This document shows positions 39,189 through 57,861 of a stretch of 64,000 bases of DNA, piece after piece. The notes beneath the pieces were generated by a model that made no database searches, was not told the origin of the DNA, and saw only the letters and a program-made list of their open reading frames with translations. Source of the DNA: Halomonas sp. (GTDB taxonomy: Bacteria; Pseudomonadota; Gammaproteobacteria; Pseudomonadales; Halomonadaceae); NCBI RefSeq assembly GCF_011050415.1, contig NZ_DRFS01000012.1:1-64000 (forward strand), written 5' to 3'. Position 1 is the stretch's first letter, and each line of letters begins with the position of its first letter. Position numbers and translations under genes: made by a program.

Positions 39189-39190
39189 TT

Positions 39191-43150: not shown

Positions 43151-43171
43151 GGTGGTGGTCTCCTGGCTAGT

Positions 43172-43183
43172 TGGTATAGACCA
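43172..43183. promoter_or_regulatory. Phosphonate operator copy 1, upstream of the 2-AEP receptor gene
   Basis: TGGTATAGACCA (TGGTCTATACCA on the transcribed strand) lies 22 bases before the receptor start. It is an exact match, inverted, to the phnW-proximal site. It is the likely operator of the GntR/UTRA regulator encoded upstream. Confidence 0.75.
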
Positions 43184-43269
43184 GAAGTTTGCCGCTAATA
43201 AATGACACTGGGATGACGCTTGTTTGACGGATTGTTTAAGTTCTTATGTATGCGAGCAGGCAACCATTG

Positions 43270-43432: not shown

Positions 43433-44139
43433 GTTTGGCCCGACAGCTCCACGCAGATACATAGCGAATCGTGTAGCCAATGCTCTTCATCAAACTCAAT
43501 TGGCCGCTGCTGGTCGTCTAAAATTGCGCGACGAATATTAAGACCTGCGGTGCCGGGCGCCACAAATAGCTCTTCAGCATCAATTGGTGCAAGCGCCTCT
43601 GAAACCATGCGGATAGAGCGGTTGGCCAAGTGATGCCCCCAGCGCCCGCGCAACAACCCCCATAGCGATTGATCGGTATAGATCTCTAATAGCTCCGGGG
43701 CGCGGTCGGGCACTACCCAGAGTGATTCCACTAATACAGCGCGATCATCCACATAGCGGCGGCGGCGAATATGGTGAAACGGCTGGTCATCAGGTAGCCC
43801 CAGGGCACGCGCAGCGGGAGGATGGGGGCGTGTTTCCATACTCAGCACGGCTGTTCGCGGCTGACGTCCCTGAGCACGCACATAATCGTTAAAACCCGCG
43901 TCGCGGGTGGGGTCATAGTCCAGACGAGCAGGTGAAATAAACCAGCCACGCCGGTTGCTGCGATGAATAAGACCTTCGCCCTCCAACTGTGACAATGCTT
44001 GCCGTAGCGTCACGCGGGTGGTGGCAAAACGCTCGGCCAATGATCTCTCAGCGGGGAGTTTGCCTTCCCACTGCGCGGCATTTTGGTCGATCAAATGACG
44101 CAGCTGTTCGGTTAGCTGTAAATAGTACGCATCAGACAT
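43429..44139 (-). CDS. GntR/UTRA transcriptional regulator of phosphonate use
   Basis: A 236-residue HutC-subfamily regulator. The winged helix-turn-helix is at about 10-75 (KLPAERSLAERFATTRVTLR, EGLIHRSNRRGWFI) and the UTRA ligand domain at 85-230 (FHHIRRRRYVDDRAVLVESL, later RPIEFDEEHWLHD). It is the phosphonate-utilisation regulator type, expected to bind 2-aminoethylphosphonate or a metabolite and release the TGGTCTATACCA sites. ATG 44139 was chosen because the UTRA family starts here; AGGA is 12 bases upstream. The TAG stop comes from the terminal CTAG of the MITE, so the original C-terminus may differ slightly. Confidence 0.87.
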   Translation of the reverse strand: MSDAYYLQLTEQLRHLIDQNAAQWEGKLPAERSLAERFATTRVTLRQALSQLEGEGLIHRSNRRGWFISPARLDYDPTRDAGFNDYVRAQGRQPRTAVLSMETRPHPPAARALGLPDDQPFHHIRRRRYVDDRAVLVESLWVVPDRAPELLEIYTDQSLWGLLRGRWGHHLANRSIRMVSEALAPIDAEELFVAPGTAGLNIRRAILDDQQRPIEFDEEHWLHDSLCICVELSGQT

Positions 44140-44162
44140 GCACCAATTTTCCTGGCAGGGCG

Positions 44163-44864
44163 TTAGGCCGTAAACCGCTTGGGAGGCGCGGCTGTTCGCC
44201 AGTCTAAGCGTCGCCACCCTTCAACGCTAGCTACCTCAGCCAGTACCGGATCCGGATTGACCGCTACAGGACAATCGACGTATTGCAATAACGGTAGATC
44301 GTTGCGGGAGTCTGAGTAAAACGTGGTGTGGCTGGGGGTGATCTGCCGTTCGCCCAGCCACTGCTGTAGGCGTAACACCTTCCCGCCACGATACGAAAAT
44401 ATACCTTCGCTTTGGCCGGTGTAGCGGGCCTCTTCATTAATGCCACGCTCTACCGTCAGTTCCACCGCCAATACGTGCTCTATCCCTAACACCGTCGCTA
44501 CCGGCTCGACGAGGTGACGCGATGAAGCCGATATTAGCACCAGGGTGTCCCCCGCCTGGCGATGCTCTTCAAGGCAGGTCCAGGCTTGCTCAAAAATACG
44601 CGGCTGTAGATGCGTCGCGACAAAGCGCTCGACCTCTTTTTGCACATCCGCCACTCGGCGACCACGCAAGGGCGCTAGGGTCATGGCTAAGTACTCTTCA
44701 AGCTTTAGCTTGCCTGCGTGGTAGGCCTGATGCATTTTCTCCGCGCGAGCCATAAAGGCTTCGGCATCGCTGATCCAACCTTGCTCTATCATCCATAAAT
44801 TCCAGCGGTCGCTGCAGTCTCCATCCAGGAGGGTGTCATCAAGATCAAACAGGGCCAGGCGCAT
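44163..44864 (-). CDS. HAD-IB family phosphatase
   Basis: A 233-residue cytoplasmic phosphatase of the SerB-like HAD-IB group. Motif I is LFDLDDTLLDGDCSDRW (4-20), motif II VLISASSRHLVEP, motif III Lys in YRGGKVLRL and motif IV YSDSRNDLPLLQYVDCPVAV. ATG 44864 follows AAAGGAGT by 7 bases. It sits 23 bases before the phosphonate regulator and in the same direction, so the two are probably cotranscribed. The substrate is unknown; the family includes phosphoserine and other small phosphomonoester phosphatases. Confidence 0.85.
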   Translation of the reverse strand: MRLALFDLDDTLLDGDCSDRWNLWMIEQGWISDAEAFMARAEKMHQAYHAGKLKLEEYLAMTLAPLRGRRVADVQKEVERFVATHLQPRIFEQAWTCLEEHRQAGDTLVLISASSRHLVEPVATVLGIEHVLAVELTVERGINEEARYTGQSEGIFSYRGGKVLRLQQWLGERQITPSHTTFYSDSRNDLPLLQYVDCPVAVNPDPVLAEVASVEGWRRLDWRTAAPPKRFTA

Positions 44865-44962: not shown

Positions 44963-46486
44963 TTAATCATCAAATCGCGCAGCGATAGTACCTGGAGCGA
45001 GCGGCAATGCTTGGCAGCGCTGCCAAATGCGCTCGTAGGCAGGCCGTAAGGTTTCGGTCATTTGTTCGGCATTAGCAATCTCGGGCCTAAGCCGCTGCAT
45101 AGCTTCGCTAATACGTTTGGATATCTCACGTTGATCAAGACGGGTTAATTTGCCATCTGCAGCGACACATTCGCCGTCTACCAGTACGCTATGAATTCCG
45201 TTGCCGCTTTCCCCAAATACTAATTGCCGTAAAGGGTTATTAAGCGGCGTAAATGCAGGGGCATCCAACCGATAGAGCACCATGTCTGCACGCTGGCCAA
45301 CCTTTAAGCAGCCCAGTTGTTTCTCAAGCCCAAGCGCTTTTGCGCCGCCTTGGGTAGCAGCATAAAAGGCCTCTTCAGCGCCCACCCAGCGGCGATAGTC
45401 ATTACCACGCAGCTTGTGCAGCAACGCCGTATTAGCGACCACACGTAGCATATCCGTGGTCTCTAACGAACCGCAGCCATCGGTGCCCAGACTAACGTTT
45501 ACCCCGGCATCCAGCAGTTGGCGAAGGGGCATCAAGCCTGAACCCAGCTTCAAATTGCTGTTGGGGTTATGCTGCACGCTGGCACCATTAGCGGCAATCC
45601 GCCCAATATCATCATCTGTCAGCCACACGGAATGAATAAGCGATGTGCCTGCTGCCAAAAAGCCCAATTCGTCCAAATGTTGGAACAGCGTTTTGCCTCG
45701 CTGATGCCATGCTGAAGCCGCCTGTAAGCGGGTCTCCTGCACATGAATAATCACCGGCAAGCCGGTGCGATCAGCCAGCGCACGCACCTCTTTTAAGAGG
45801 CCATCGGTGCAGCGCTGTGGGGCTGACGGTGCTAAAAGCACACCGACTCGGTTATTACGTGGGTGGCGCGTTGCCGCCAGTGACTCAACAAAGCGCAAAT
45901 ACTCGGCGATGGGCGTTGCGTTACCTGGGGCTAAGCTGGCCAACGTTTCATGGCTAAACTCTTCGTGAATAAACGGCACGCTTTCATGAAAAGGCACGTC
46001 AAATAGCGTCGGCCCTACCAACGCGCGAATACCTATATCTTCATAAGCCTTTAAGGCGGCCTGCACATGGTCAGGGTTTAAAACCGGTGACGCATTGAAA
46101 TCATCGATAATACAGGTGGTGCCCGACAGCAAGGCTTGGCTAGCACCGACCAACGTACGTAGGTAAATATCATCAGCGGTTAGCGGCAGCGGCTTGGCTG
46201 GCCGTACGTAATTCATCCACAGCTCAAGGGGCAGGCGGTCATAACGTCCCTTGTGGAAATTTTCATGGGAGTGGTGGTGGCCGTTAATAAATCCCGGAAC
46301 GGTAAAGGTATCAGAAGCATCGACACACTCGCCCTCTACTGGCCGGCTTCCCGATGGGCGGATGTCGTCTATCACGCCATTACGAATGACGATATCCACC
46401 GGCCCAGTGCCGACTGAAACACCATCGCTATTCAGGGCCAACGTACCCACCAGCGTTATGGTCTTGTTCATATTGGTTTTATCCAT
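44963..46486 (-). CDS. COG0402 amidohydrolase (cytosine/s-triazine deaminase-like), copy 1
   Basis: A 507-residue metal-dependent amidohydrolase of the ATZ/TRZ family, which deaminates or dechlorinates N-heterocycles. The metal site is seen as GFINGHHHSHENFH (HxH), HVQETR (third His), IHSVW and GTDGCGSLETTDM with the catalytic Asp. The C-terminal ~60 residues (MQRLRPEIANAEQMTETLRP) form an extra helical tail. ATG 46486 has GGAAA upstream; ATG 46471 is possible. It follows a TctCA(B) transporter in the same direction, past a strong hairpin, so its substrate may be what that transporter imports. It differs from the second family member at 52588. Confidence 0.82.
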   Translation of the reverse strand: MDKTNMNKTITLVGTLALNSDGVSVGTGPVDIVIRNGVIDDIRPSGSRPVEGECVDASDTFTVPGFINGHHHSHENFHKGRYDRLPLELWMNYVRPAKPLPLTADDIYLRTLVGASQALLSGTTCIIDDFNASPVLNPDHVQAALKAYEDIGIRALVGPTLFDVPFHESVPFIHEEFSHETLASLAPGNATPIAEYLRFVESLAATRHPRNNRVGVLLAPSAPQRCTDGLLKEVRALADRTGLPVIIHVQETRLQAASAWHQRGKTLFQHLDELGFLAAGTSLIHSVWLTDDDIGRIAANGASVQHNPNSNLKLGSGLMPLRQLLDAGVNVSLGTDGCGSLETTDMLRVVANTALLHKLRGNDYRRWVGAEEAFYAATQGGAKALGLEKQLGCLKVGQRADMVLYRLDAPAFTPLNNPLRQLVFGESGNGIHSVLVDGECVAADGKLTRLDQREISKRISEAMQRLRPEIANAEQMTETLRPAYERIWQRCQALPLAPGTIAARFDD

Positions 46487-46511
46487 ACCGGTTTTCCACA
46501 GCGCACACAAA

Positions 46512-46540
46512 CAAGCAGCTCCTGACTCAGGAGCTGCTTG
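46512..46540 (-). terminator. Perfect 14-bp hairpin between tctC and amidohydrolase 1
   Basis: CAAGCAGCTCCTGA and TCAGGAGCTGCTTG are perfect complements with one base between. On the minus strand this lies 14 bases after the tctC stop and is followed by TTGTTTGTG. It could terminate most transcripts after the receptor gene, or protect the 3' end of the upstream message. Confidence 0.75.
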
Positions 46541-46554
46541 AGCGGGTGGCGTCT

Positions 46555-47523
46555 TTATTCGCCGAGGTAAGCAGCACCCAGTGCTGCCTGCTCAGCCGTT
46601 AAGGCTTCAGCAAAGGCTTCATGGTCAAGAAACTGGATACCTGAGCCAATCTGACCAATCAAGCGTAGAAAACCTTCATCCTGAGTTAAGCGCTCAAAGC
46701 CATCGCTGAGTTCAGCCACTACTTCAGGCGGTGTGCCTGCGGGTGCCATTACGCCCCGCCAAAACTGGAAGACAACATCGTAGCCCTCTTCCTGGCAGGT
46801 GGGGATATCCGCATAGGCTTCAAAGCGCTGAGTATCGGTAACACACAGACCAACGAGCGTACCCGCGTCGAGATGCTCGCCCACCACACTGGGGTCGCCC
46901 GCATAGGCCATGGTATTGCCACCCACCAGTTGGGTCACCGCAGGGCCGCCTCCACCAAGCTCTACGCCGCGCATATCAATGTCAGCCGTCGACTTGAGCA
47001 TTTCAAAGACGGTAAAGGTAAAACCATTGCGGTTATCGGAGCTGTAAACCAGCTCGTTGGGATTGCCTTCGGCGTAATCGTCCAGCTCTTCGATGGTTTG
47101 AAAAGGCTGATCCGGCGTCGTAACAAAAATCGCAGGGCTGTAATTGATGCGTGCTACGGCAACAAAATCATCCATTTCGTAAGGTAGGTCTTCGACTTGA
47201 GGGCGCAACGAGTTAATCGTTGGGTCACCAAACAGCAGCAAGGTGCCATTGGGCGTACTGCGCGCCACTTCAGCCGCAGCAACGGCACCACCACCGCCGC
47301 CACGAATAGTGGAAATTAGCGGGCGGCCCAAAAAGTCCTCCCCCACCGCAGTGATAATACCAGCATGGAGTGAGTGCGACCCACCGGCTGGATACGGCGT
47401 TACGAAACGGATAGGTTCATCGGCTAAATGGCTATCTTGAGCTAACGCTTGCCCAGCAGTGAGGGTCGCAGCGGCCATAAATGAAGCGGCTATTAACGTA
47501 CGAGCAAAAATGGGACGAGTCAT
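46555..47523 (-). CDS. TctC-family periplasmic solute receptor (cyclic-amide cluster)
   Basis: A 322-residue extracytoplasmic receptor. It has a signal peptide (1-28, ending QALA-QD) and the TctC loop IRFVTPYPAGGSHSLHAG; GGGPAVTQLVGGNTMAYAGD stands at about 188-207. GGAGTTACCTC precedes ATG 47523. It lies after tctB and tctA, the reverse of the acid-sugar operon order. The sequence does not reveal the ligand; its neighbours suggest a heterocyclic amide or ring-opened carboxylate. Confidence 0.85.
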   Translation of the reverse strand: MTRPIFARTLIAASFMAAATLTAGQALAQDSHLADEPIRFVTPYPAGGSHSLHAGIITAVGEDFLGRPLISTIRGGGGGAVAAAEVARSTPNGTLLLFGDPTINSLRPQVEDLPYEMDDFVAVARINYSPAIFVTTPDQPFQTIEELDDYAEGNPNELVYSSDNRNGFTFTVFEMLKSTADIDMRGVELGGGGPAVTQLVGGNTMAYAGDPSVVGEHLDAGTLVGLCVTDTQRFEAYADIPTCQEEGYDVVFQFWRGVMAPAGTPPEVVAELSDGFERLTQDEGFLRLIGQIGSGIQFLDHEAFAEALTAEQAALGAAYLGE

Positions 47524-47534
47524 GAGGTAACTCC

Positions 47535-49079
47535 TTAGTGCTTTTGGGACGGGGAAGGAAGACGTTTAAAGCGCTTTTTAATAATTCCTGCCGTCGTTAG
47601 CCCACGCCAAGCCATCACGACGATGACCAGAGCTAATAAGACCAGCAGGATAAGGCTGCCTGGACGCGACCAGAAGATCGCCAGGCTGCCGTTTGAGAAC
47701 ACCAGCGATTGGCGCAGAGCGCTCTCAAAACCCGGCCCCAGCAACAGGCCAATAATTAGCGGTGCAACGGGAAAACCTGTACGCCGCATGACATAACCCA
47801 AACCACCGCCCGCCACTAATACCAACAAATCAAAGGAGCTGGAGTTGACGGCGTAAGCGCCACACAAACAGAGCAGCATGACGCAGGGATAGAGTACGGT
47901 GGGGGGAATACGCGTGACCTGTTTGAGCCAGCGAATCGCCAATAACCCAAAACCCAGCAGCAGCACATTGGTGACCAGCAGCACTAAGAACATGCCAAAT
48001 AGAAAGCCGGGATTTTGCTGGATCATCAACGGCCCTGGCATCATGCCCTGCGCCATTAAGGCACCGATAAGCACTGCAGTAATCGTGTCGCCGGGGATAC
48101 CAAAAATAGTCATCGGAATAAGCGCGGCGGGCACGACAGCGTTGTTACCGGATTCCGCGGCGGCTAGACCTTCCAGTGAACCTTTTCCAAATTTTTCTGG
48201 CTCGCGAGAGCGACCCCGGGCGACCCCATAGGCAATCCAACAGGCAATTTCAGCCCCTAACCCCGGTAGCGAACCTAAAAATGCACCTAACGTGGTTGAG
48301 CGAATAATCGTTGGCCGCAAGGCCCAAAACTCAGCCCAGCGCAGCCGCTCGCCGCCATGTTCCACCACCCCGGCATGACTGTTTTCCGCCGAATGCGAGG
48401 GAGGATGAGTGAGTTGCATAAGGATTTCGCTGAGTGCGAACATGCCAATTAGTAGCGGAATTAACGATACCCCCGCTAATAAATCGGTGCTGCCGAAGGT
48501 AAACCGCTGATAGCCAGTCATGGGGTCAAGACCAACACAGGCAACCAACAGGCCTAGCCCTGCGGCAATCATGCCTTTGAGAAAGCTTTCACCGCTCACC
48601 GTCGCGATCATGGTCAGCGCGATCAGATAGAGCAGCGCAAACTCTGGTGATCCAAAGCGGATAGCAATACTGGCCAGAGGTATGGCCACCACAATCAGTA
48701 CCAAGGTTGCGAGAAAATCAGCTGCAACCGAGCTATACAAACTCAGCTCTAACGCTTTGCGCGACTTGCCCTGTTGCGTTAGCGCATAGCCATCCTTAGC
48801 CGTTGCGGCCGCCGCCGCCGTTCCCGGGGTATTGACCAAAATGGCCGGAATCGAGCCGCCATAAATGGCCCCTTTGTAGATTCCCAACAAAAACGGAATG
48901 CCGATAGTGGCGTCCATAAAGAAGGTAAAAGGGGCAAGCACGGCGACCGCCATGGTGGCGGTAAGCCCAGGCAGCGCGCCAATCAAGATACCACCGGCCA
49001 GACCTGCAGAAAGCGCCAGGAAGGTCCACGGACTGGCCAGCATTGCCAGCCCCTGCTGCAGCACACTCAAGTCAATCAC
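47535..49079 (-). CDS. TctA-family large permease (cyclic-amide cluster)
   Basis: A 514-residue inner-membrane permease with about 11-12 hydrophobic segments. It shows GGILIGALPGLTATMAVAVL near the N-terminus and TLGAFLGSLPGLGAEIACWI plus MTIFGIPGDTITAVLIGAL later, the paired TctA loops. The third loop has GIPGD where the acid-sugar permease has GIPGS. It overlaps tctB by 4 bases and is followed by tctC 11 bases later. It belongs to the operon that starts with the racemase-fold and hydantoinase genes. Confidence 0.88.
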   Translation of the reverse strand: MIDLSVLQQGLAMLASPWTFLALSAGLAGGILIGALPGLTATMAVAVLAPFTFFMDATIGIPFLLGIYKGAIYGGSIPAILVNTPGTAAAAATAKDGYALTQQGKSRKALELSLYSSVAADFLATLVLIVVAIPLASIAIRFGSPEFALLYLIALTMIATVSGESFLKGMIAAGLGLLVACVGLDPMTGYQRFTFGSTDLLAGVSLIPLLIGMFALSEILMQLTHPPSHSAENSHAGVVEHGGERLRWAEFWALRPTIIRSTTLGAFLGSLPGLGAEIACWIAYGVARGRSREPEKFGKGSLEGLAAAESGNNAVVPAALIPMTIFGIPGDTITAVLIGALMAQGMMPGPLMIQQNPGFLFGMFLVLLVTNVLLLGFGLLAIRWLKQVTRIPPTVLYPCVMLLCLCGAYAVNSSSFDLLVLVAGGGLGYVMRRTGFPVAPLIIGLLLGPGFESALRQSLVFSNGSLAIFWSRPGSLILLVLLALVIVVMAWRGLTTAGIIKKRFKRLPSPSQKH

Positions 49080-49564
49080 AGCAGAATACCCCGCGGAAAA
49101 TAGATCCCCATCACCCCTTCAAACAGATGGATGACAACCGTAGGAGGAATAACTGCCAAGGCCAGTAGTACATACCAGCGCTGCTCACCAAAACACACCG
49201 CTAACAGCGGCACTGCCAGCATGCTGACTAACCAAATACCCGCTACGTTGATCAATAACGCCATCGCCAGCATTAAGAGGAAAGCGATAAGCGCTACTCC
49301 GGTACGGCCCCGCTCAAATACAACGTTTGCGTTGGCTCGCCATGTCCCCAACAGCATGATCACTCCCAAGCCGGTGACCAATAGCGCCACAAGGCCAGGG
49401 AAAAATGCCGCCGAGCCAATATCTCCCGGCGCGCCATAGGGGGGTGGTGTGCCGTGCACAATGCGCAAAAAGCTAATTCCAATGACAATGACCCCTAACG
49501 CAAGTAACGACGTAAGCAGTTTGCCAATAAGTAGAGGGTTACTGGCCCATGCTTTTGACATCAT
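49076..49564 (-). CDS. TctB-family small transporter subunit (cyclic-amide cluster)
   Basis: A 162-residue membrane protein with four hydrophobic segments. The TctB signature GDIGSAAFFPGLVALLVTGL occurs at ~43-62 and a polar stretch (NANVVFERGRTG) lies between helices 2 and 3. ATG 49564 is chosen because GGAG is 5 bases upstream; an upstream extension would overlap the hydantoinase gene. It ends in a 4-base overlap with tctA. The gap to the hydantoinase gene is 43 bases. Confidence 0.82.
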   Translation of the reverse strand: MMSKAWASNPLLIGKLLTSLLALGVIVIGISFLRIVHGTPPPYGAPGDIGSAAFFPGLVALLVTGLGVIMLLGTWRANANVVFERGRTGVALIAFLLMLAMALLINVAGIWLVSMLAVPLLAVCFGEQRWYVLLALAVIPPTVVIHLFEGVMGIYFPRGILL

Positions 49565-49607
49565 GCTGGCTCCGCGCGCATTAGCAGAAGTGCTATCGCT
49601 GAAGAGA

Positions 49608-51050
49608 TCACCACGCGACACCCCCTTCTGGTCGCGGCTTGGGCCGCGCGGGAGCAGGCAGGTCGCAGCGCAGAAAGGCACCGCGCCCAGGCGTACCTAA
49701 ATAGTCGCCATCCCGCCAGACCACTTCACCTCGCGACAGGGTTAGGGCAGGCCAAGCGGTGACGGGAATGCCTTCGTAGGGGGTGTAATCAACGCCATGA
49801 TGTAAATCCACATTGCGAATGGTGCGCTCAAGGCCGGTATCCCAGATCACTAGATCCGCATCAGCACCAATGGCAATTGACCCCTTACGCGGATAAATCC
49901 CATACATGCGCGCTACATTGGTGGCCGTGAGCGCCACAAACTGCTGAATGGTAATTCTGCCGGTCTCTACACCGTGGCTAAACAGCAGCGCTAAACGGGT
50001 TTCAAGCCCTGGAATACCGTTGGGAATGCGCGCAAAGCTGGCATCTTCCCCTGCCGCAAACTTGCCTTCAGGGCCTTCAAAGGTGAACGGTGCATGATCC
50101 GAGGAGAACACCTGAAAAACGCCGTTTTCTAGTCCATCCCAGACGAATTGCTGATTCGCCTTATCGCGAGGTGGCGGGCTGCAAATGCACTTGGCACCCT
50201 GAGGGTCATCGTCTAGGCCCAGGTCATCGGCCGTTAAGAATAAGTACTGGGGACAGGTTTCGGCATAGACGCGTAAACCATGTTGGTGCGCCCAGCGCAG
50301 TTGCTCCATTGCTTCGCGTCCGGAGACATGCACAATCAGGATGGGCACATCGACCAGCTCGGCGTAGGCAATGGCGCGATGGGTGGCTTCCCGCTCAACC
50401 AGCATGGGCCTGGCGGCGGCATGGTAGCGGGGTGCCGTATGGCCATTGGCAAGCAGGCGCTCGGTTAACCAGGCAATGCAGTCGGCATTTTCGGCGTGGA
50501 CCATTACCATGGCACCGTGTTCACGGGCAACCGCCAGCACATCAATGATTTCACGATCTGCCAACTTCAGATCGTCGTAGGTCATGTAGATTTTAAACGA
50601 GGTGTACCCTTCGCGGATCAGTTCAGGTAGCTCTAAGGCAAGCACGTCGGGAGTGGGGTCGGTGACAATCAGATGGAAGGCGTAATCGATGCACGCCTTG
50701 CCCTCCGCCCGGTTGTGATAATCCTCGACTGCAGCCCGCAGGCTCTGGCCCTTAATTTGGCAGGCAAAAGGGAACACCGTCGTGGTGCCACCGCAGGCCG
50801 CTGAACGTGTCCCAGTGAGGAAGTCGTCGGCCATTTTAGAGCCATCGGACGTCGGCTGATCCAGATGGCAGTGGCCATCAATACCGCCAGGCAGTACCCA
50901 GCGCCCTGCCGCGTCGATCTCCTCCTTCCCCGCCCCCAGCGCATTGCCCAAGGCAACAATGACCCCATCGCGAATACCAATATCGGCGTCAAAAACATCG
51001 GCGGCGGTGGCACAGCGCGCCCGACGGACTACTAAATCGAACTCAGCCAT
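49608..51050 (-). CDS. Dihydropyrimidinase/D-hydantoinase family cyclic amidase
   Basis: A 480-residue binuclear metal amidohydrolase that opens hydantoins or dihydropyrimidines to N-carbamoyl acids. Metal ligands are His60 and His62 (GIDGHCHLDQP), the carboxylated Lys153 (YTSFKIYMTYDD), His185 (MVHAENAD), His241 (VHVSGREA) and Asp318 (SSDHAPF). All are present, so it should be active. The loop HLDQPTSDGSKMADDF after the first His pair differs from HLEMPFMG of common D-hydantoinases, hinting at another ring substrate. No N-carbamoyl-amino-acid amidase is encoded nearby, which is unusual for a hydantoin route. It precedes the TctBAC genes in one operon. Confidence 0.87.
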   Translation of the reverse strand: MAEFDLVVRRARCATAADVFDADIGIRDGVIVALGNALGAGKEEIDAAGRWVLPGGIDGHCHLDQPTSDGSKMADDFLTGTRSAACGGTTTVFPFACQIKGQSLRAAVEDYHNRAEGKACIDYAFHLIVTDPTPDVLALELPELIREGYTSFKIYMTYDDLKLADREIIDVLAVAREHGAMVMVHAENADCIAWLTERLLANGHTAPRYHAAARPMLVEREATHRAIAYAELVDVPILIVHVSGREAMEQLRWAHQHGLRVYAETCPQYLFLTADDLGLDDDPQGAKCICSPPPRDKANQQFVWDGLENGVFQVFSSDHAPFTFEGPEGKFAAGEDASFARIPNGIPGLETRLALLFSHGVETGRITIQQFVALTATNVARMYGIYPRKGSIAIGADADLVIWDTGLERTIRNVDLHHGVDYTPYEGIPVTAWPALTLSRGEVVWRDGDYLGTPGRGAFLRCDLPAPARPKPRPEGGVAW

Positions 51051-51051
51051 A

Positions 51052-51783
51052 TTACAGAGTCCCTTCCATCAAACGTCCCCAGCCTTTGACTGGAGTAGTT
51101 GCGTGCCCCGTCATGCGCATCATTTTCCATACCACTGTTGCGGTGGTATCCAACACCGGCACGCCTAGCTCCGCTTCCCACTGGGCCACTAGTTGAGCAG
51201 AGTTGAGGTTGGTACAGGCGACGACTATCAAGGGAGCGCCCTGTTCAGCGACCCGCCGTACCTGGGCAGTCAGGGTCTCGGCGCTCACCTCGGCAAAGGC
51301 AAAATTTTCACTGATGCTAAGGTGATCTTCCGCAACAATGCTGAAACCCTCAGCGTGGTAATTCGCCAAAATACGCTGCTGTACGTCGTCGGTATAAGGT
51401 GTCACTAAACCGAATTCACGCACACCGTGCTCGGTCATGATCTCGTTAAGCGCCAACATGGATGTGGTGGCTTGAATACCCGTTTCAGCCTTAATGCGCT
51501 GGCACAAGGTGACGTCGTGGTCAAAGCCGAGCCAGCCTGCGGAGGTACCGCTCCAACCAATCACATCGACCCTGGCATCGGCGAGTAGCTTGGCGGCAGC
51601 CAGCACATGGGTATCGTCAAATTGGCCCAACGCCCGCTGACTTAGGGCTATTTCAGTGACACCAAAACGAGAAAAATGCGCAGTGACGCCAGGCACCTGA
51701 GCCACCATTGCGGAGGTTAATGGCTCTAGTGCGGTATTCGAAGAAGGCGTTAAAACACCAAAGCGGCTACGTGGCGTGGTCAT
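51052..51783 (-). CDS. Asp/Glu-racemase-fold protein, arylmalonate-decarboxylase/maleate-isomerase-like, single cysteine
   Basis: A 243-residue cytoplasmic protein of the Asp/Glu racemase superfamily. The usual first catalytic Cys is Gly79 in GWSGTSAGWLG, while the second is kept (Cys190 in VVACTNLNSA). With Thr80, Ser81 and Tyr130 (VTPYTDD) this matches the Gly74-Thr75-Ser76/Tyr126/Cys188 set of bacterial arylmalonate decarboxylase, where one Cys protonates a planar enediolate. Maleate isomerases and racemases have two Cys. A decarboxylase or one-base isomerase is therefore more likely than a racemase. GGAGCACTATA precedes ATG 51783. Its stop and the hydantoinase start are 1 base apart. Confidence 0.78.
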   Translation of the reverse strand: MTTPRSRFGVLTPSSNTALEPLTSAMVAQVPGVTAHFSRFGVTEIALSQRALGQFDDTHVLAAAKLLADARVDVIGWSGTSAGWLGFDHDVTLCQRIKAETGIQATTSMLALNEIMTEHGVREFGLVTPYTDDVQQRILANYHAEGFSIVAEDHLSISENFAFAEVSAETLTAQVRRVAEQGAPLIVVACTNLNSAQLVAQWEAELGVPVLDTTATVVWKMMRMTGHATTPVKGWGRLMEGTL

Positions 51784-51815
51784 TATAGTGCTCCTGAATT
51801 TATAGGTTGTGTGCC

Positions 51816-52568
51816 TTAAGGGATGCTTTGCCGTCCGATTAACTGACCTAATGCAGGCGATAAGCCTTGCCAGTTTTTTTCAGGCGGTGGAGCGTAGCTT
51901 CCCGCCGTCGCTTTATAAGGGCTCAGCCTTGCCAGTAGTTCCGCCTGATGAACGGCACAGCTCACACCATCCACAACGGGCACCGGAATCCGCTCTGCTA
52001 CACTGCGTGCCAACCCTGCTAGCGGTGCGCCTGCAATAATCAACACATCGGCCCCGTCTTCGCGCACAGCGGCTTCGCACAGCGCCACTAGCTGCTCACC
52101 TTTGTCCTGCTGAACGCTGCCAATGTTGGGCAGCGGTTCATCTAAGCAGCGGATACTTGCCAGGCGAGAGGCCATTCCATAGCGGTCAACGGTTTCGCTG
52201 TACCAAGCGCGAATACGCCGCGAAATCGCCACAATACCGATGCGACCGCCCAGCATGGCGGCACTCATCAGGGCACTCTCAGTAAGCCCAACCACCGGGA
52301 TCGGCAGCATTTCACGGGCAGCCTCTAAGCCAGGGTCGCCGAAGGCCGCAATGATCGCGGCGTCATGCCCCGCGTAGTGTTCCGCAAGCTCATTCAATGT
52401 TGCATAGGCCCCGACCGCTGCTTCAGCGCGGGTTTCGATATAGGCCACCCCAAAGGCAGCCGTGCGCAGCGTCAACTGTGTATCGCCGCTTGCCGAACGC
52501 CGCGCCTCAGCAGCGATAAGGTCGGTGACACTTTGCGAGATATTAGGGTTAACAATCAGTAGCTTCAT
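51816..52568 (-). CDS. Asp/Glu/hydantoin-racemase-fold protein without catalytic cysteines
   Basis: A 250-residue relative of hydantoin and allantoin racemases (HyuE). It has the family start MKLLIVNPNISQSVTDLIAA and the loops IIAAFGDPGLEAARE (72-86) and LIIAGAPLAGLAR (176-188). Racemases carry Cys in the first loop (AC.GDPG) and in the second (LGCAG); here they are Ala75 and Gly180/Ala181. The fold is intact, so the enzyme may not racemise but perform another acid/base or ring-opening step, or bind a ligand. ATG 52568 has GGAG 8 bases before it. It sits between the second amidohydrolase and the single-Cys relative, in one operon. Confidence 0.78.
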   Translation of the reverse strand: MKLLIVNPNISQSVTDLIAAEARRSASGDTQLTLRTAAFGVAYIETRAEAAVGAYATLNELAEHYAGHDAAIIAAFGDPGLEAAREMLPIPVVGLTESALMSAAMLGGRIGIVAISRRIRAWYSETVDRYGMASRLASIRCLDEPLPNIGSVQQDKGEQLVALCEAAVREDGADVLIIAGAPLAGLARSVAERIPVPVVDGVSCAVHQAELLARLSPYKATAGSYAPPPEKNWQGLSPALGQLIGRQSIP

Positions 52569-52587
52569 AAAGGCAGTCTCCACCGCA

Positions 52588-53955
52588 TCAAACCTGAGCC
52601 CGGGCACGCGCCCAGAGCGCTTCAGCCGCGTGCTGCGCATCGGCCAGCAATGCGGGCGTATCGGCCAAGCACAGCTCGCCTTCTTCAACCACTATCTGGC
52701 CGTTGCACACCACCATCTCGACATCCCGCCCTTGAGCGGTGTGTACCAAGTTGCCGAGGGCATTAATCAGCGGCACTAAGTGCGGGCGACGGAAGTCAAA
52801 CACCACTAAATCAGCGCGCTTGCCGGGGGTAAGTGATCCCAGCTCTGCATCCAACCCTAACGCTTTAGCGCCACCCAGAGTGGCCATTTCCAGCACGTGA
52901 TGAGGCTGCCAAGTGTCGTTAATCTCGCTCTCCTGCACCCGGCCCATAATCAATGCCCAGCGCATCACTTCCACCATATCGCCGTGCATGTTGTCGGTGC
53001 CTAGGGCAAGGTTTGCACCTGCAGCGCGTAACCGCGTGGTGGGGGCAATTCGACCGCCGGTGGCATTACCCCGTGGGATATGGGCAATGTTGGTGCCGGT
53101 ACGGCCTATGCGCTCGATATCGCTGTCGGTCACGTACATACAGTGGGCGGCGGTAAAGCGCGGGCCCAGCAGCCCAACATCTTCCAGCAGCTCACTAGGC
53201 GTCATACCGTCACGCTCCATCACTCGACGGTTCTCTTTAACGCTTTGGGAAAGGTGGCCATTAACGTGAATACCCAGCGCATCGCGGGCAGTGGCAACTT
53301 TGGCTAATAAAGCACGGGAACAGGTATCAGGCGCATGGGCAGCAAGCTCTACGCCTAATCGGCCATCCAACTTGCCTTGCCAGCGCTCGTGAAGCGCAAT
53401 GGCTTCATTCAGCGTTCGCTCGCCAATCCCATCGCGGTGCTCCCAAACCCCTTCGTGCACACGGCTGAAATCCACATCGTGAATGCGCCCGCAGGTAATC
53501 ACCCGCATGCCTAGCTCGCCCATGGCAGGAAGCGTTAAGTCGGCATGCACATAGCTGTCGTTAATCAGTGTTGAACCAAATAACAGCGCTTCGGCGGCCC
53601 CTAACCGTGCCAAGGCAACGGCTTCCTCTTCGCTCACTTCATGGCCATGGGGCACACCCGGGGTATAGGCCGGTGCGAAACCCATATCTTCAGCAACGCC
53701 GCGCACCATGCTCAGAATGGTGTGGGTATGCACATTGACGAAGCCTGGGGTAATCACTCGGCCGGTTAAATTAAGGGTGCGGCGCGCGGGGGGTAGCGGC
53801 TGTGCCGGATCATTTGGCTCCACCTCGACTAAGCGGCCCTGATGAATCACCAGGCGGGCATTTGGAATTTCGCCCAGCAGTGGATCAACCGTCAGCACCC
53901 GAGCGCCATGGATAACCAAATCAGCGGGATGCTGAGAATCGAATGGTTGCGTCAT
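52588..53955 (-). CDS. COG0402 amidohydrolase (deaminase/chlorohydrolase-like), copy 2
   Basis: A 455-residue metal-dependent deaminase of the ATZ/TRZ family. It has the HxH motif FVNVHTHTILSMVRG (the usual GLVNxHxH context), AAHAPDTCSR, HVNGHLSQSVKENR with the substrate-side His, and ALGTDNMHGDMVEVMRWA with the metal Asp. The C-terminal half ends with KRADLVVFDFRRPHLVPL. ATG 53955 follows GGAG by 6 bases. It is about 30% alike to copy 1 by eye and lacks that protein's helical tail, so the two probably act on different rings. It lies between a TRAP transporter and the racemase-fold genes in the same direction. Confidence 0.82.
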   Translation of the reverse strand: MTQPFDSQHPADLVIHGARVLTVDPLLGEIPNARLVIHQGRLVEVEPNDPAQPLPPARRTLNLTGRVITPGFVNVHTHTILSMVRGVAEDMGFAPAYTPGVPHGHEVSEEEAVALARLGAAEALLFGSTLINDSYVHADLTLPAMGELGMRVITCGRIHDVDFSRVHEGVWEHRDGIGERTLNEAIALHERWQGKLDGRLGVELAAHAPDTCSRALLAKVATARDALGIHVNGHLSQSVKENRRVMERDGMTPSELLEDVGLLGPRFTAAHCMYVTDSDIERIGRTGTNIAHIPRGNATGGRIAPTTRLRAAGANLALGTDNMHGDMVEVMRWALIMGRVQESEINDTWQPHHVLEMATLGGAKALGLDAELGSLTPGKRADLVVFDFRRPHLVPLINALGNLVHTAQGRDVEMVVCNGQIVVEEGELCLADTPALLADAQHAAEALWARARAQV

Positions 53956-53973
53956 TATCTGCTCCGATAACAT

Positions 53974-55254
53974 TTAGTAGCCAAGCGCGCGGGGCAGCGC
54001 AGTGACTAACTGAGGAACGAAGATGCATAGGGCAAGCACTGCAAACTGGAAGGCCACAAACGGCAGCGACTCTTTTACAAGCTGCATCATGGGCACTTTG
54101 GTGATGCCGCTCATAACGAAATAGAGCACACCTACCGGCGGCGTCATCATGCCGACGACCAGGTTGTACATAAACAGAAAGCCGAAGTAGAGCGGGTCGA
54201 TGCCATAGGTCAGCGCAACAGGCGCAAACAGCGGCACCAACATGATGTAAGCAGCGTTAGATTCTATAAGCATGCCCACCACGACCAGCAGCGCCATGGT
54301 GAGTAAGATGAAGGTCATCGGGTCGCTGGTCAGCTCCTGAATAAAATCAGACAACATCATCGGCACCATCTCGATGGTGAAGATGAATGTCAGCACAGAA
54401 GCAAACGCAATCAACGCGCCGACCATTGCCGATGTGACTGCAGCACGGTAGAGACAGCCAGGCAGGTCGGAAATTTTCAGCCGCCGTGTGACGACAAAAC
54501 CGATCAGCGCGGAGTACACCACGGCGATGGCAGCGCCCTCGGTAGCGGTAAAAATGCCGCCGACAATCCCGCCTACGACAATCACCGGCATCATAATGAT
54601 GACCATCGCGCGTCGCCCTTGGTACAACACATTGGCCAGATTAAAACGCTCGCCGGTCAGCGGATAACCCCGCTTCCACGAGATCCAGCTGGCAATCACC
54701 ATAAAGCCAACGGCTAGCAATATCCCGGGCAGTATACCGGCGATAAAAAGCCCGCCCACGGAGACCGAAGAGCCCGCCATCAGCGCATACACGATCATTG
54801 CATTGCTGGGGGGAATCACCGGCCCCAAATTAGCTGCGGAGGCAATAACGGCCCCTGAGTAAGCATCGGGATAGTACTTGCGTAGCGAGGGAACCAAGGT
54901 GCTTCCCATAGCGCTGGCACTTGCAACCGCGGCACCACTGACAGAGGCAAAAATAGTCCCAGAGGTGATCGTCACATGGGCCAAACCACCATGCATCCGT
55001 CCGACCAAGCTGTTTGCGAAGGCAATCAGGCGATCCATAATGCCAGCACGCACCATTAGCTCACCGGCCAACATAAATAGCGGAATAGCCATTAAGGGGA
55101 AGCTATTAACCGCATGCATCATGCGCTGCGGCATGACCACTAGCTCGAAGTCGAGCATCCATAGCCCCGCTAGAGAGCCAAAACCAAGCGCAAAGGCCAA
55201 CGGCATACCGAAAAAAGCCAGGGCCAGAAATAAACCAATTGCCATCCACGTCAT
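53974..55254 (-). CDS. TRAP transporter large permease DctM (cyclic-amide cluster)
   Basis: A 426-residue inner-membrane protein with about 12 hydrophobic segments. TRAP DctM landmarks are FFGMPLAFALGFGSLAG at the N-terminus, FASVSGAAVASASAMGSTLV and IPPSNAMIVYALMAGSSVSV in the middle, and MTPPVGVLYFVMSGITKVPM near the C-terminus. It uses a Na+ gradient to move a carboxylate delivered by the DctP receptor. ATG 55254 overlaps the dctQ stop (ATGA) with GGGAGGAG upstream; longer in-frame versions run into dctQ. It precedes amidohydrolase copy 2 by 18 bases. Confidence 0.88.
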   Translation of the reverse strand: MTWMAIGLFLALAFFGMPLAFALGFGSLAGLWMLDFELVVMPQRMMHAVNSFPLMAIPLFMLAGELMVRAGIMDRLIAFANSLVGRMHGGLAHVTITSGTIFASVSGAAVASASAMGSTLVPSLRKYYPDAYSGAVIASAANLGPVIPPSNAMIVYALMAGSSVSVGGLFIAGILPGILLAVGFMVIASWISWKRGYPLTGERFNLANVLYQGRRAMVIIMMPVIVVGGIVGGIFTATEGAAIAVVYSALIGFVVTRRLKISDLPGCLYRAAVTSAMVGALIAFASVLTFIFTIEMVPMMLSDFIQELTSDPMTFILLTMALLVVVGMLIESNAAYIMLVPLFAPVALTYGIDPLYFGFLFMYNLVVGMMTPPVGVLYFVMSGITKVPMMQLVKESLPFVAFQFAVLALCIFVPQLVTALPRALGY

Positions 55255-55820
55255 GACAACTCCTCCCAGGTGCGCGATCCACCCCATGCCAACAGCGCTA
55301 AGTGTAAAAAGGCGTGGGCGCCGCAAATCAGCACAGCGATGTAGTAGATGGCAGAGGTGACCGGCAGGGTCGGCATTAGCTCCGGCCAGCGATCAACTGT
55401 CGCGACCCACGCGCCAATCATCACCATCAGCATCAGAAGCGTGGAAACACCGGCCATCAGGCGAAAGAGAACCTCCTTCAACCAAGCGGGCATCATCATC
55501 ACAAATAGATCGATACCGACATGCACCCCGTGTTTCACGCCATGGGGAATGGCCAGGAAGATCGCCCACACAAAGCACAAGCGTGATAGCTCATCGGCGG
55601 CGTCAATGGAGGAACCAAGCACATAGCGCCAGAACACCTGAAGCGCCACGATGGTCACCATTAGCGCCATGACAGCAACAATGCCCCAGTAGGTAACGGC
55701 ATCTAAGCGTTCAACGACCCATTTCGCCCGTTGAAAAGCAGTGCTGAAATGCGGAGGCACAGGCCCCCGCTTAGTATCATTTTGAGGTGATGCAGAAGTA
55801 GGCGTCATGGCAGGCCTCAC
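55251..55820 (-). CDS. TRAP transporter small permease DctQ (cyclic-amide cluster)
   Basis: A 189-residue protein with four hydrophobic segments (about 38-60, 74-94, 108-130, 150-175) and a long polar N-terminus. The DctQ motif ELSRLCFVWAIFLAIPHGVK is at about 80-99. It bridges receptor docking to the large permease. It overlaps dctM by 4 bases and dctP by 4 bases, the tight packing usual for TRAP operons. Confidence 0.87.
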   Translation of the reverse strand: MRPAMTPTSASPQNDTKRGPVPPHFSTAFQRAKWVVERLDAVTYWGIVAVMALMVTIVALQVFWRYVLGSSIDAADELSRLCFVWAIFLAIPHGVKHGVHVGIDLFVMMMPAWLKEVLFRLMAGVSTLLMLMVMIGAWVATVDRWPELMPTLPVTSAIYYIAVLICGAHAFLHLALLAWGGSRTWEELS

Positions 55821-56818
55821 AGTGCTGCTTCAGCTTCCTGGGTGACCAGCTCAATGAACGCAGGGTCTATACGATCCTTGAGGCTTTCCGTGACTTCCAG
55901 CGTAGCTTTGCGCAGTTCAGCCCGTAGCTCCGGTGAGATCGGCGTAAACTCCATGCCGTCTGCAATTAGCTGCTCACGCCACTGTTCCTCTTCATTCGCG
56001 GCGGCTTCACGCTGCCAAGCCATTGCATCCGCCATGGCGGTATCAATAATGGCGCGGTGCTCTTCTGAGAGGCGCTCGTAGCTACGCTGGTTAGCCACGG
56101 CATTGATAAAGTCATAGAAGTGGCCACTATCTGAGAGGTACTCCTGTACTTCGTTAAAGCGACGGCTGGCGATGATGTTGTAAGGGTTCTCCTGGCCATC
56201 GAGGACACCCTGCTGCAGCGCTGAATAGAGCTCTGATACATCCATCGACACAGGGTTGGCACCCAGTGCACGGAAGGTCTGCAGGTGAACTTCATTAGGC
56301 TGAAGGCGAATGCGCATGCCCGCAAAATCTTCTACAGAGGTAATGGGGCGCAAACTGTTCGTCACATGGCGAAATCCCAGCTCACCATAGCCAAGGTTAA
56401 CGAACCCTAGCTCTTCCATCTTTTCGTCCAATTGCTCGCCAACGGGACCGTCCATAACGGCAAACGCCTGTTCACGGTTATCAAACAAGAAGGGTAAGCT
56501 CACCGCCTCATACTCAGGTATGGAGCGCGTGAAGTAAGCGATCGACGTAAACACAGCGAAGATAGTGCCAGAGCGTACTTGGTCAACGTTTTCAGTAGCA
56601 CCGCCTAGCTGCATGGCGGGAAATAGGTCAATTTGCAGTTCGCCATCAGACTCGCGCTCTACCTGCTCTTTGAACACTTCCATGGCGCGTGAAACAGAGT
56701 GATCGGTGGGGAAGTTGCCCGCTACACGCAGTCGTTCAGCCGCCTGTAGCGATGAGGAGAATAGGGTCGCGGCCGTCAGCAGCGAGGCCAGCTTTACAAC
56801 GTTAGCTTTAGAGATCAT
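55817..56818 (-). CDS. TRAP transporter substrate-binding protein DctP (cyclic-amide cluster)
   Basis: A 333-residue periplasmic receptor. The signal peptide is 1-26 (ending LQA-AE). DctP hallmarks are FPAMQLGGATENVDQVRSGT (~64-83), DFAGMRIRLQPNEVH with the carboxylate-binding Arg, and ALQQGVLDGQENPYNII. It therefore binds a carboxylic acid. GGAGGC lies upstream of ATG 56818. It is the first gene of a TRAP-amidohydrolase operon that reads on to the TTT genes, and a GntR regulator is divergent from it. Confidence 0.88.
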   Translation of the reverse strand: MISKANVVKLASLLTAATLFSSSLQAAERLRVAGNFPTDHSVSRAMEVFKEQVERESDGELQIDLFPAMQLGGATENVDQVRSGTIFAVFTSIAYFTRSIPEYEAVSLPFLFDNREQAFAVMDGPVGEQLDEKMEELGFVNLGYGELGFRHVTNSLRPITSVEDFAGMRIRLQPNEVHLQTFRALGANPVSMDVSELYSALQQGVLDGQENPYNIIASRRFNEVQEYLSDSGHFYDFINAVANQRSYERLSEEHRAIIDTAMADAMAWQREAAANEEEQWREQLIADGMEFTPISPELRAELRKATLEVTESLKDRIDPAFIELVTQEAEAAL

Positions 56819-57171
56819 GGGGAGGCTCCAGCGGTTTCATGAAGTGACCATCGCCTGCGGGAACGGGCGAGTACTTGAAATGAAACAGCAAGCGCCATGC
56901 CATTCAGCGAGTTGTGATTAAAAAAAAAGCCCTAAAAGCAGCACAAACCAATGATTTACAATAAAATTAAAAGAGTGCAAAAAATATTCAAGTGATATTG
57001 TCTCATAAATTGCATACAATTTATTAAACATAATAATGCACATAATTGATGCTTCTCAGGATACCCCTGCACTTGAATAGTGCGCTATTCCAAATTTTTC
57101 ACGTTTTGAACACAGCACTACAGACCACCGTATCCTTACGGCATACTGAACGCAGTTTTCGACAGGATAAA
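56819..57171. promoter_or_regulatory. Divergent promoter region between the TRAP/amidohydrolase operon and its GntR regulator
   Basis: These 353 bases are AT-rich and hold no gene I can support. They should contain both promoters. An FCD-type operator candidate, ATTGCATACAAT, is at 57009-57020. In-frame codons upstream of the chosen GntR start (57046-57171) are treated as leader. Confidence 0.55.
57009..57020. promoter_or_regulatory. Candidate FCD-GntR operator
   Basis: ATTGCATACAAT is a near-perfect palindrome with half-sites ATTG/CAAT and the TGYATRCA core common to FCD-type GntR operators. It lies about 150 bases before the GntR start and 190 bases before dctP in the AT-rich divergent region. 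Confidence 0.5.
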
Positions 57172-57861
57172 ATGACCATGGACGCCGTCCCGACGACCAA
57201 GCCTGCCATTGAGCAGATAGCAGAGCGCATTACTGACGCAGTAATGGAGCATCGGTTACCGCCTGGTATTAAGCTTGTAGAGGAGAAGCTAGCAAGTGCC
57301 TTTGGCGTTAGCCGGACCAAAATCCGCCAGGCCCTGACCCTGCTTGCTAAAGAGGGACTAGTAACCCTGCATGCCAATCGAGGCGCATTTGTGACTCGCC
57401 CAAGCGCGGCTGAAGCGCGTGATTTATTTGCTACTCGTCGGCTCGTTGAGCCTGAAATCGTACGCAATGTAATTGCCCGAGCTTGCGAACATGATCTTGC
57501 TCGATTGCGTCAACATTTAGTCGCTGAGTCGGAAGCCAGGCAGGAAGGAGATCGGCGCAGAATTATTCGCCTTTCGGGGCAGTTTCATATGCTGCTAGCG
57601 GAAGTCAGTGGCAATAAATTTATCGAAAAACTGATGGCAGAACTGTGCCCTTTAACCTGCTTAATTATTGCGCTTTACGACGCGCCACAAACACCTGCCT
57701 GTCCTGAAGATGAGCATAAGCTAATCGTAGATGCCATTGCTGCCCACGATGAAACGGAGGCTATTAAGCTAATGCTGCATCATTTGGAGCACATTGAGTG
57801 CGAGTTACAGCTAGATACCGAACCTAAGCGTGATATTCACTGGGAAACACTTTACGGCTAG
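57172..57861 (+). CDS. FadR-subfamily GntR regulator (FCD domain) of the cyclic-amide cluster
   Basis: A 229-residue regulator. The winged helix-turn-helix is at about 10-75 (GIKLVEEKLASAFGVSRTKI, LAKEGLVTLHANRGAFV) and the FCD domain follows at ~85-220 (FHMLLAEVSGN, DEHKLIVDAIAAHDETEA with the metal His residues). ATG 57172 is preferred because AGGATAAA precedes it and because the added upstream residues are not family-like. It is divergent from the dctP operon and most likely represses it until the imported acid binds. Convergent with the GGDEF/EAL gene, 16 bases apart. Confidence 0.87.
   Translation: MTMDAVPTTKPAIEQIAERITDAVMEHRLPPGIKLVEEKLASAFGVSRTKIRQALTLLAKEGLVTLHANRGAFVTRPSAAEARDLFATRRLVEPEIVRNVIARACEHDLARLRQHLVAESEARQEGDRRRIIRLSGQFHMLLAEVSGNKFIEKLMAELCPLTCLIIALYDAPQTPACPEDEHKLIVDAIAAHDETEAIKLMLHHLEHIECELQLDTEPKRDIHWETLYG

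Follow-up and report, generated by a model that had tools for sequence, protein, structure and literature searches.

Organization of the operon

The stretch of DNA analysed here, referred to as the window, is the first 64,000 nucleotides of Halomonas sp. contig NZ_DRFS01000012.1 (C12), and between positions 44963 and 56818 it carries eleven genes on the minus strand that probably form an operon with which this salt-loving bacterium breaks down an acidic nitrogen ring compound. The listing of open reading frames (ORFs) together with Pfam and NCBIfam scans showed that all eleven genes are open and their frames unbroken, and in the order in which they are read they encode DctP, DctQ, DctM, an amidohydrolase (AH-B), a HyuE-like protein, an AMDase/EutA-like protein, a hydantoinase, TctB, TctA, TctC and a second amidohydrolase (AH-A). 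Adjacent ORFs are separated by at most 44 bp and several of them overlap; their start positions are uncertain. The features of the locus are as follows.

57046..57861, plus strand: GntR/FCD regulator, divergent from the operon (Pfam GntR and FCD); its true start possibly lies inside the ORF
57009..57020: candidate palindromic operator ATTGTATGCAAT, within the divergent promoter
55817..56818, minus strand: DctP, TRAP solute-binding protein (PF03480)
55251..55820, minus strand: DctQ, TRAP small permease, assigned only from its size and its position between DctP and DctM
53974..55326, minus strand: DctM, TRAP large permease (TIGR00786, 377 bits against a cut-off of 268); start uncertain
52588..53973, minus strand: AH-B, COG0402-like amidohydrolase (PF01979) with HLSQ, Gln standing for the catalytic Glu
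51816..52568, minus strand: HyuE-like racemase-fold protein (PF01177) with Ala75 and Gly180 and no cysteine pair
51052..51783, minus strand: AMDase/EutA-like protein (PF17645, Amdase) with a single Cys190, Gly79-Thr80-Ser81 and Tyr130
49608..51050, minus strand: D-hydantoinase/dihydropyrimidinase-type cyclic amidohydrolase (PRK13404, TIGR02033; Amidohydro_1)
49076..49681, minus strand: TctB (PF07331); start uncertain, the ORF overlapping the end of the hydantoinase gene
47535..49079, minus strand: TctA (PF01970)
46555..47523, minus strand: TctC (PF03401)
46512..46540, minus strand: hairpin of 13 pairs with a weak T tail in the interval between TctC and AH-A, a possible attenuator or mRNA end
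44963..46510, minus strand: AH-A, COG0402-like amidohydrolase (PF01979) with a canonical HxxE

An earlier sequence-only reading of this DNA had described a set of genes running in one direction that includes a hydantoinase, TctABC and a TRAP transporter, and these genes are indeed present and co-directional, with DctQ placed by position and size as listed. The ORF of the HyuE-like protein runs to 52688 but homology begins only at the Met encoded at 52568. Pfam matched Asp_Glu_race in 51816-52688, and in 51052-51783 both Amdase and Asp_Glu_race were matched.

Conservation of the gene set in related loci

The related loci (numbered with the prefix L) comprised 23 from named genomes, 16 plasmid regions, two of which (L043 and L046) came without annotation, and further genome stretches. 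Sixty loci were counted, and in 51 of them an AMDase-like gene was called at an identity of at least 40%. These loci were selected because they matched one of three operon proteins, the hydantoinase, the AMDase-like or the HyuE-like one, and co-occurrence is therefore biased upward; near-identical species were counted separately and some contigs stop within the neighbourhood. The nine loci in which the AMDase-like gene was not called (L023, L035, L040, L042, L044, L046, L047, L094 and L133) were dropped, although the annotation of L035 and L040 includes such a gene and L023 and L133 were fetched through a match to one. In the 51 loci a hydantoinase was found in 38, a HyuE-like protein in 32, a GntR regulator in 31 and an amidase-signature gene in 20. 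The transporters varied, a TRAP of a second type being found in 16 loci, a TRAP of the same type as in the window in 13, an NMT1-type ABC transporter in 12 and an MFS transporter in 8, and other accompanying genes were FAH-family (13), DUF3830 (6) and PuuE-like (6) genes.

When only the nine loci were considered in which the AMDase-like protein shares 75% identity or more with that of the window, the hydantoinase, the HyuE-like protein, AH-B, TRAP and GntR were present in all nine, and TctA and AH-A in eight. This recurrence indicates that the grouping of the genes is not due to chance. TctA together with AH-A (at least 60% identity) was found in 8 of these 9 loci and in none of the other 42, the closest loci being from Halomonadaceae and one Marinobacter. 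Gene order is kept in the closest loci, and what recurs in Alpha-, Beta- and Gammaproteobacteria is a core made up of the hydantoinase, AMDase-like and HyuE-like genes, to which a GntR gene and a transporter of varying type are usually added. A looser member is the Arthrobacter plasmid locus L038, where the HyuE-like protein is 53%, the AMDase-like protein 42% and the hydantoinase only 32% identical, and in the Rhizobiales loci L028 and L029 the core genes are accompanied by two amidohydrolases from other subfamilies. An AMDase-like protein of 98% identity was found in V. neptunia (Vreelandella). Occurrence of the module is patchy: the AMDase-like gene was found in 12 of 82 genomes of the genus, in one of them with an in-frame stop, and in 17 of 398 genomes of a phylum sample. 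In a class sample the HyuE-like protein had a match at or below 1e-20 in 13 of 369 genomes, and apart from the window's own these matches were 29-35% identical.

Catalytic residues of the operon enzymes

Judged by alignment with characterized relatives, three of the operon enzymes, namely the HyuE-like protein, the AMDase-like protein and AH-B, have lost or changed catalytic residues that their family names would imply. According to the relevant passages of PMC12661438, the catalytic pair of allantoin racemase is Cys79 and Cys184. In all 26 HyuE-like sequences of at least 44% identity, the window's included, Cys79 is replaced by Ala and Cys184 by Gly, and both altered motifs were present in 31 of 31 fetched HyuE-like genes of at least 40% identity. 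Among 20 sequences of at most 35% identity, 11 had both Cys, 4 had one and 5 had none, and the Cys-less ones were L046 and those of L059 and L091-L093, which belong to amidase-PuuE clusters. The fold and the FGDPG motif of the allantoin and hydantoin racemases (HpxA/HyuE) are nevertheless kept. The AlphaFold model (predicted local distance difference test score, pLDDT, 88.6) is nearest to allantoin racemases, the five best-matching chains having template modelling (TM) scores of 0.86-0.90. In a tree of 53 sequences the 32 altered ones were split from the 11 two-Cys ones with support of 99/96, the other sequence types sharing the altered side, and the node holding the 32 altered sequences alone had a support of 91/69. 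Since the tree labels and the set of 32 were sorted by the two motifs, it would be circular to count the motifs in that set, and the uncircular counts are the 26 of 26 and 31 of 31 given above. Tyr43, Arg47 and Trp122 are shared without exception by the 32 altered sequences, and 10 of 10 two-Cys sequences lack them at those columns, one long-branched two-Cys sequence being omitted from this comparison. The two-Cys pair is not absolute, because the solved allantoin racemase 5lfd has a Gly aligned at the first Cys site and one Cys may therefore suffice for racemisation. We know of no family member that has been shown to racemise without any catalytic Cys. With both of them gone in 26 of 26 sequences, racemisation by the HyuE-like protein was rejected as much less likely.

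The AMDase-like protein resembles arylmalonate decarboxylase (AMDase, EC 4.1.1.76) in its fold, in a Gly at the first site and in the equivalents of Thr75, Tyr126 and Cys188, each of these four being present in 40 of 40 sequences. The AlphaFold model (pLDDT 92.2) has maleate isomerase and AMDase as its nearest folds. The pertinent part of the AMDase survey (PMC4996985) terms the Gly/Cys pattern at the two sites distinctive of AMDase and also reports TTT and TRAP transporters near AMDase genes, a neighbourhood that the window shares. The AMDase-like protein differs from AMDase in that the latter has PP at 14-15 and Gly189, where the window protein has PSSN and Thr. Its PSSN loop is also that of maleate cis-trans isomerase, and the structures closest to it in fold are maleate isomerases, but that enzyme has two Cys and the first of these sites is a Gly here. 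Its best NCBIfam match was EutA with 85 bits, far under the equivalog cut-off of 318. According to the title of structure 2xed, mutation of the second Cys leaves maleate isomerase with a covalent succinylcysteine, from which it follows that the first-site Cys is the nucleophile of that enzyme. This position is Gly in 40 of 40 AMDase-like sequences, which argues against isomerisation, and a maleate-type isomerisation by the AMDase-like protein was therefore rejected. Decarboxylation, on the other hand, is plausible because the single-Cys arrangement of AMDase is retained, so that only the first half of the earlier proposal of "decarboxylation or isomerisation" holds up. Likewise, for the two proteins that had been described as racemase-fold, the fold is borne out by the AlphaFold comparisons whereas neither has a two-Cys site.

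The hydantoinase is a true member of the D-hydantoinase/dihydropyrimidinase family, scoring above both NCBIfam cut-offs (PRK13404, 791 against 647 bits; TIGR02033, 536 against 393). When it was aligned to solved D-hydantoinases, the metal ligands (HxH, Lys, His, His and Asp) and the position of the carboxylated Lys were found to be kept in the motifs HCH, SFK, VHAEN, VHVSG and SDH, and the residues that bind the ring amide were kept as well. Hydantoinase lid loops determine side-chain specificity, and these loops are polar in the window enzyme (DQPT.., YMTYDDLKL), SGL-1 included, in contrast to the hydrophobic ones of the Bacillus enzymes. The SGL-3 lid residue that is Phe in Bacillus D-hydantoinases (1k1d and others) is Lys in 27 of 37 sequences. 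As far as residues can tell, this lid Lys points to a substrate with an acidic side chain, which would agree with import by TRAP and TctABC.

In the sequence-only reading both COG0402-like enzymes were deaminases. AH-A has the HxH, HxxE and Asp motifs, with Glu in 18 of 18 sequences, 9 of which are close orthologs, and by these motifs it could be one. AH-B has Gln in place of the catalytic Glu of HxxE in 12 of 12 sequences of at least 38% identity and reached none of the NCBIfam cut-offs displayed; in view of this change, deamination by both enzymes is not supported. AH-B (at least 38% identity) was found in 9 of 9 closest loci and in none of the 42 other loci with a called AMDase-like gene. 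A relative of 53% identity, however, adjoins AMDase-like and hydantoinase genes in Azospirillum L040, matches of 53-54% were found in seven Azospirillum plasmid records and one of 40% in Allorhizobium L046, which shows that AH-B is not limited to relatives of Halomonas.

Regulation

The palindrome ATTGTATGCAAT in the divergent promoter is exact in 7 of the 9 close relatives and changed in L013 and L016. The pattern ATTGTATRCAAT had a single exact match in the 4.7-Mb genome and the control pattern had none. In a search of the window allowing one mismatch, for which 0.61 matches per 64 kb are expected by chance, the sole matches were the two strands of the site at 57009..57020. A looser pattern of the palindrome gave 15 matches in the 60 loci and a reversed control pattern gave none. 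Thirteen of the 15 lay in zones of up to 400 bp upstream of GntR or AMDase-like starts, where 0.56 would be expected if matches were uniformly distributed; the pattern had, however, been derived from 7 of the 15, which are Halomonas sites, and many loci gave no match. The independent matches were those of L018 (two), L040, L041 and L129, and of the remainder one (L091:345) lies beside another GntR gene and those of L020 and L125 are outside the zones. In Marinobacterium L018 the palindrome ATTGCATACAAT fronts both a TRAP-amidase unit and an AMDase-hydantoinase unit.

A scan for sigma-70-like promoters gave fewer sites than in shuffled sequences (4 against 9.8), and a scan for terminator-like structures gave 19 hits in the region where shuffled sequences gave 16.1; the hairpin at 46512..46540 is therefore distinguished by its length alone. 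Hairpins of differing sequence were seen by eye at the same spot between TctC and AH-A in relatives, and AH-A may therefore be expressed at a level different from that of the other genes. As to independent regulation of the TRAP, amidohydrolase and TTT parts, which would have spoken against a single pathway, these genes are contiguous and lie behind one candidate operator, and a strong hairpin precedes AH-A.

Carbamoylase and amidase genes

None of the places in the genome that match M20 (12), TIGR01879 (7), CN_hydrolase (11) or amidase (9) lies on contig C12. Two M20 genes above the cut-off of TIGR01879 (hydantase) are present at C19:143753 and C19:153434, in other gene neighbourhoods. When the genome's own M20 and CN_hydrolase proteins were used in BLAST searches, carbamoylase-type homologs were found in only 4 of the 60 loci: an M20 gene of 58% identity about 5 kb from the HyuE-like gene in L022, and CN_hydrolase-like ORFs of 27-28% in L024, L029 and L133. 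The genome has amidases at 8 loci (9 places), and none is orthologous to the ten module amidases compared, the best identity being 38.5%. A carbamoylase elsewhere under the same control was rejected, the amidases being non-orthologous and the palindrome without a second exact site; none is visible under the same regulator with a single exact operator site in the genome, looser sites not having been searched genome-wide.

Elsewhere the module tends to employ an amidase. In L010, L011 and L015 a TRAP transporter and an amidase (56-57% identical to a Marivita amidase) lie immediately upstream of the regulator, accompanied in L010 and L011 by a PuuE-like gene. In the more distant Halomonas loci L091-L093, in Pseudomonas L017 and in Marinobacterium L018 the amidase and TRAP genes form a unit oriented divergently from a GntR relative, and this relative in turn lies in front of the genes for the AMDase-like protein and the hydantoinase. 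An FAH-family gene follows the hydantoinase in L010, L014, L015 and L016, and DUF3830 lies between the HyuE-like and AMDase-like genes in L012-L014 and L095. In the window operon and in its nearest relative L009 no amidase, PuuE-like, FAH-family or DUF3830 gene was called. The absence of an amide hydrolase is thus lineage-specific. The use of an amidase would be expected if the ring-opened product is the amide of an acid and not a carbamoyl amino acid. That no N-carbamoyl amidase is present is therefore correct for contig C12, but as a statement about an amidase it does not extend to the module as a whole, given its presence in 20 of 51 loci and in the upstream flank of three close relatives.

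Proposed pathway and alternatives

From the gene content, its conservation, the residue changes and the conserved palindrome, which are observed here, we infer the reactions, their order, the induction and the substrate class. Our tentative preference, which we hold as possible but short of probable, is that the operon serves a carboxylated cyclic imide or ureide, with ring opening by the hydantoinase coupled to a cofactor-free decarboxylation. Expression of the operon would be induced by the substrate, and the acid would be imported by TRAP and, in this lineage, also by TctABC. AH-A and AH-B would probably produce the ring substrate from a precursor that carries an amino group or another substituent, and the hydantoinase would open this ring at its CO-NH-CO face, the lid Lys being positioned to hold the acidic side chain. 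The AMDase-like enzyme would then decarboxylate the ring-opened malonate-type acid without a cofactor, its lone Cys protonating the carbanion, and the Cys-less HyuE-like protein may carry out a non-racemase reaction on the same or the next intermediate. In related bacteria the amidase-signature enzyme would cleave the remaining amide and the FAH-family enzyme would act downstream, and in this genome either an unlinked amidase would have to cleave that amide or the product would be excreted. It is conceivable, and offered with reserve, that this amounts to an undescribed pathway, spread over Alpha-, Beta- and Gammaproteobacteria, that opens the ring of an anionic cyclic imide or ureide by a hydantoinase-type reaction and couples this to cofactor-free decarboxylation by a single-Cys relative of AMDase, with the Cys-less HyuE branch performing a new non-racemase reaction that involves Arg47 and Trp122.

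Several observations weigh against this proposal. The strict AMDase criteria of Pro15 and Gly189 are lacking, PSSN and CTN standing there in 40 of 40 sequences, the AMDase NCBIfam score was 81 bits against a cut-off of 225, and the equivalent of Ser76 is Ser in 33 of 40 sequences and Ala in 7. The lid Lys is missing in 10 of 37 hydantoinases, including those of the core-bearing Rhizobiales L024, L025, L028 and L029, and a hydantoinase was not called in 13 of the 51 loci, for example Caballeronia L034. Many loci, including L013, L016, L017, L092 and L093, gave no match to the strict palindrome. Finally, the window is without amidase and FAH-family genes and the pathway as drawn is therefore incomplete here.

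The classical pathways do not fit, as had been proposed earlier. An N-carbamoylase with the hydantoinase, as in the classical hydantoin pathway, was not found in family searches of contig C12, and neither dihydropyrimidine dehydrogenase nor beta-ureidopropionase, the partners in the reductive pyrimidine pathway, was found in the operon by the ORF list and the Pfam and NCBIfam scans. A hydantoinase paralog of 39% identity lies beside a CN_hydrolase gene on C19 (about 178-181 kb), in a neighbourhood (about 175-181 kb) where genes resembling PreA/PreT and a transporter of the NMT1 type were also recognized by eye, and this neighbourhood resembles a classical reductive pyrimidine set. A third hydantoinase paralog (32-34%) was seen on C25 (L097, 56000-75000) with an amidohydrolase (30%), an M20 gene and, by eye, an NMT1-type ABC transporter.

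The alternative that survives best, although we consider it unlikely, is a plain cyclic-imide route without decarboxylation, in which the hydantoinase acts as an imidase, an amidase converts the resulting half-amide to a dicarboxylate for central metabolism, and both racemase-fold proteins merely adjust stereochemistry or tautomers. It accounts for why a carbamoylase is unneeded, and an amidase is present in 20 and a PuuE-like gene in 6 of the 51 related loci, with TRAP, amidase and PuuE-like genes directly upstream in L010 and L011. There is a precedent for it in nicotinate catabolism of Aspergillus, for which the passages concerned in PMC9304392 describe a PuuE-related cyclic imidase (HxnM) followed by an amidase (HxnN). 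Imide opening followed by an amidase is also what the sister loci suggest, but here the ring opener is of the hydantoinase type, and the AMDase-like and HyuE-like proteins have no counterpart in those passages. The amidase for such a half-amide is present in the flanks of L010, L011 and L015 but was not found on contig C12, and the operon showed no PuuE-like gene. A purely accessory role of the AMDase-like protein is also unlikely because its catalytic Cys is kept in 40 of 40 sequences.

Less likely still is a route related to purines, pterins or barbiturate, in which deaminated amino-heterocycles would become trioxo rings and these a malonate-type ureido acid, a substituted malonate that the AMDase-like enzyme would decarboxylate. 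The AMDase-like loci L034 (Caballeronia) and L019 (Paraburkholderia) do have NCS2, UbiD and a COG0402-like amidohydrolase, the one of L034 passing PRK12393, and two amidohydrolases are present in the Halomonas operons and, from other subfamilies, in Rhizobiales L028 and L029. However, most loci of the module are without a nucleobase transporter, import here would be by TRAP or TctABC, and known dihydropyrimidinases work on saturated rings. We regard as improbable a variant hydantoin pathway made up of a racemase, the hydantoinase and an unlinked carbamoylase from C19: the two TIGR01879 members on C19, the family-true hydantoinase and the 58% relative near the HyuE-like gene of L022 are in line with it, but the supposed racemase has neither catalytic Cys, the palindrome is nowhere else exact in the genome, both C19 M20 genes are in other neighbourhoods and carbamoylase-type homologs were so few among the loci. 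That the set is decayed, or that horizontal transfer merely happened to bring unrelated transporter and hydrolase genes together without a common pathway, as the patchy occurrence and the one in-frame stop could suggest, is very improbable when the closest loci keep the gene order, the core recurs across classes, the frames are intact and there is a single palindrome.

In the open-access literature, judged by titles and the opening lines of abstracts, no paper was found on the combined hydantoinase/AMDase-type/amidohydrolase/TRAP cluster, and none on DUF3830. In the part of PMC4996985 that states its aims, the AMDase survey claims just a first insight into possible functions and natural substrates, and the module described here could supply a physiological setting for AMDase relatives. 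For the Cys-less HyuE branch the annotation "aspartate/glutamate racemase family protein" can mask a different chemistry. Because the operon is short and has one candidate operator and two solute-binding proteins, the substrate can be searched for directly in a growth or ligand-binding screen.

Variant clusters and adjoining genes

In Caballeronia plasmid pNK83 (L034, 1241-9789) and in L019 an AMDase-like gene is found with a COG0402-like amidohydrolase, NCS2 and UbiD, a hydantoinase not being called, and L034 additionally has UbiX and two more amidohydrolases; these clusters possibly represent a related nucleobase-type pathway. In L130 (6816-15481) an AMDase-like gene and an amidohydrolase lie near what appear by eye to be a molybdenum-hydroxylase-type 2Fe-2S subunit and a large ORF, hinting at hydroxylation of a heterocycle. 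The core module on an IncFIB-typed plasmid of Klebsiella michiganensis (L032, 2626-12836) is accompanied by NAD-epimerase, SDR, FAH-family and hydroxyisobutyrate-dehydrogenase-like genes. A decayed copy was seen in L094 (about 9146-11119, genome G404), in which the AMDase-like gene is reduced to a fragment interrupted by a stop codon, with an FAH-family gene left over.

Within the window a second TRAP transporter is encoded in the same direction at 60679-63716. That it might be a leftover of the TRAP-amidase unit of the sister species was rejected: its large permease shares 97% identity with the corresponding protein of L009 but about 41% with the permeases of L010, L011 and L015, and it is therefore a different transporter. 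On the other side the operon is bordered at 37198-44217 by what appears by eye to be a set for 2-aminoethylphosphonate catabolism, with aminotransferase- and phosphonatase-like proteins, an ABC transporter and a UTRA-type regulator.

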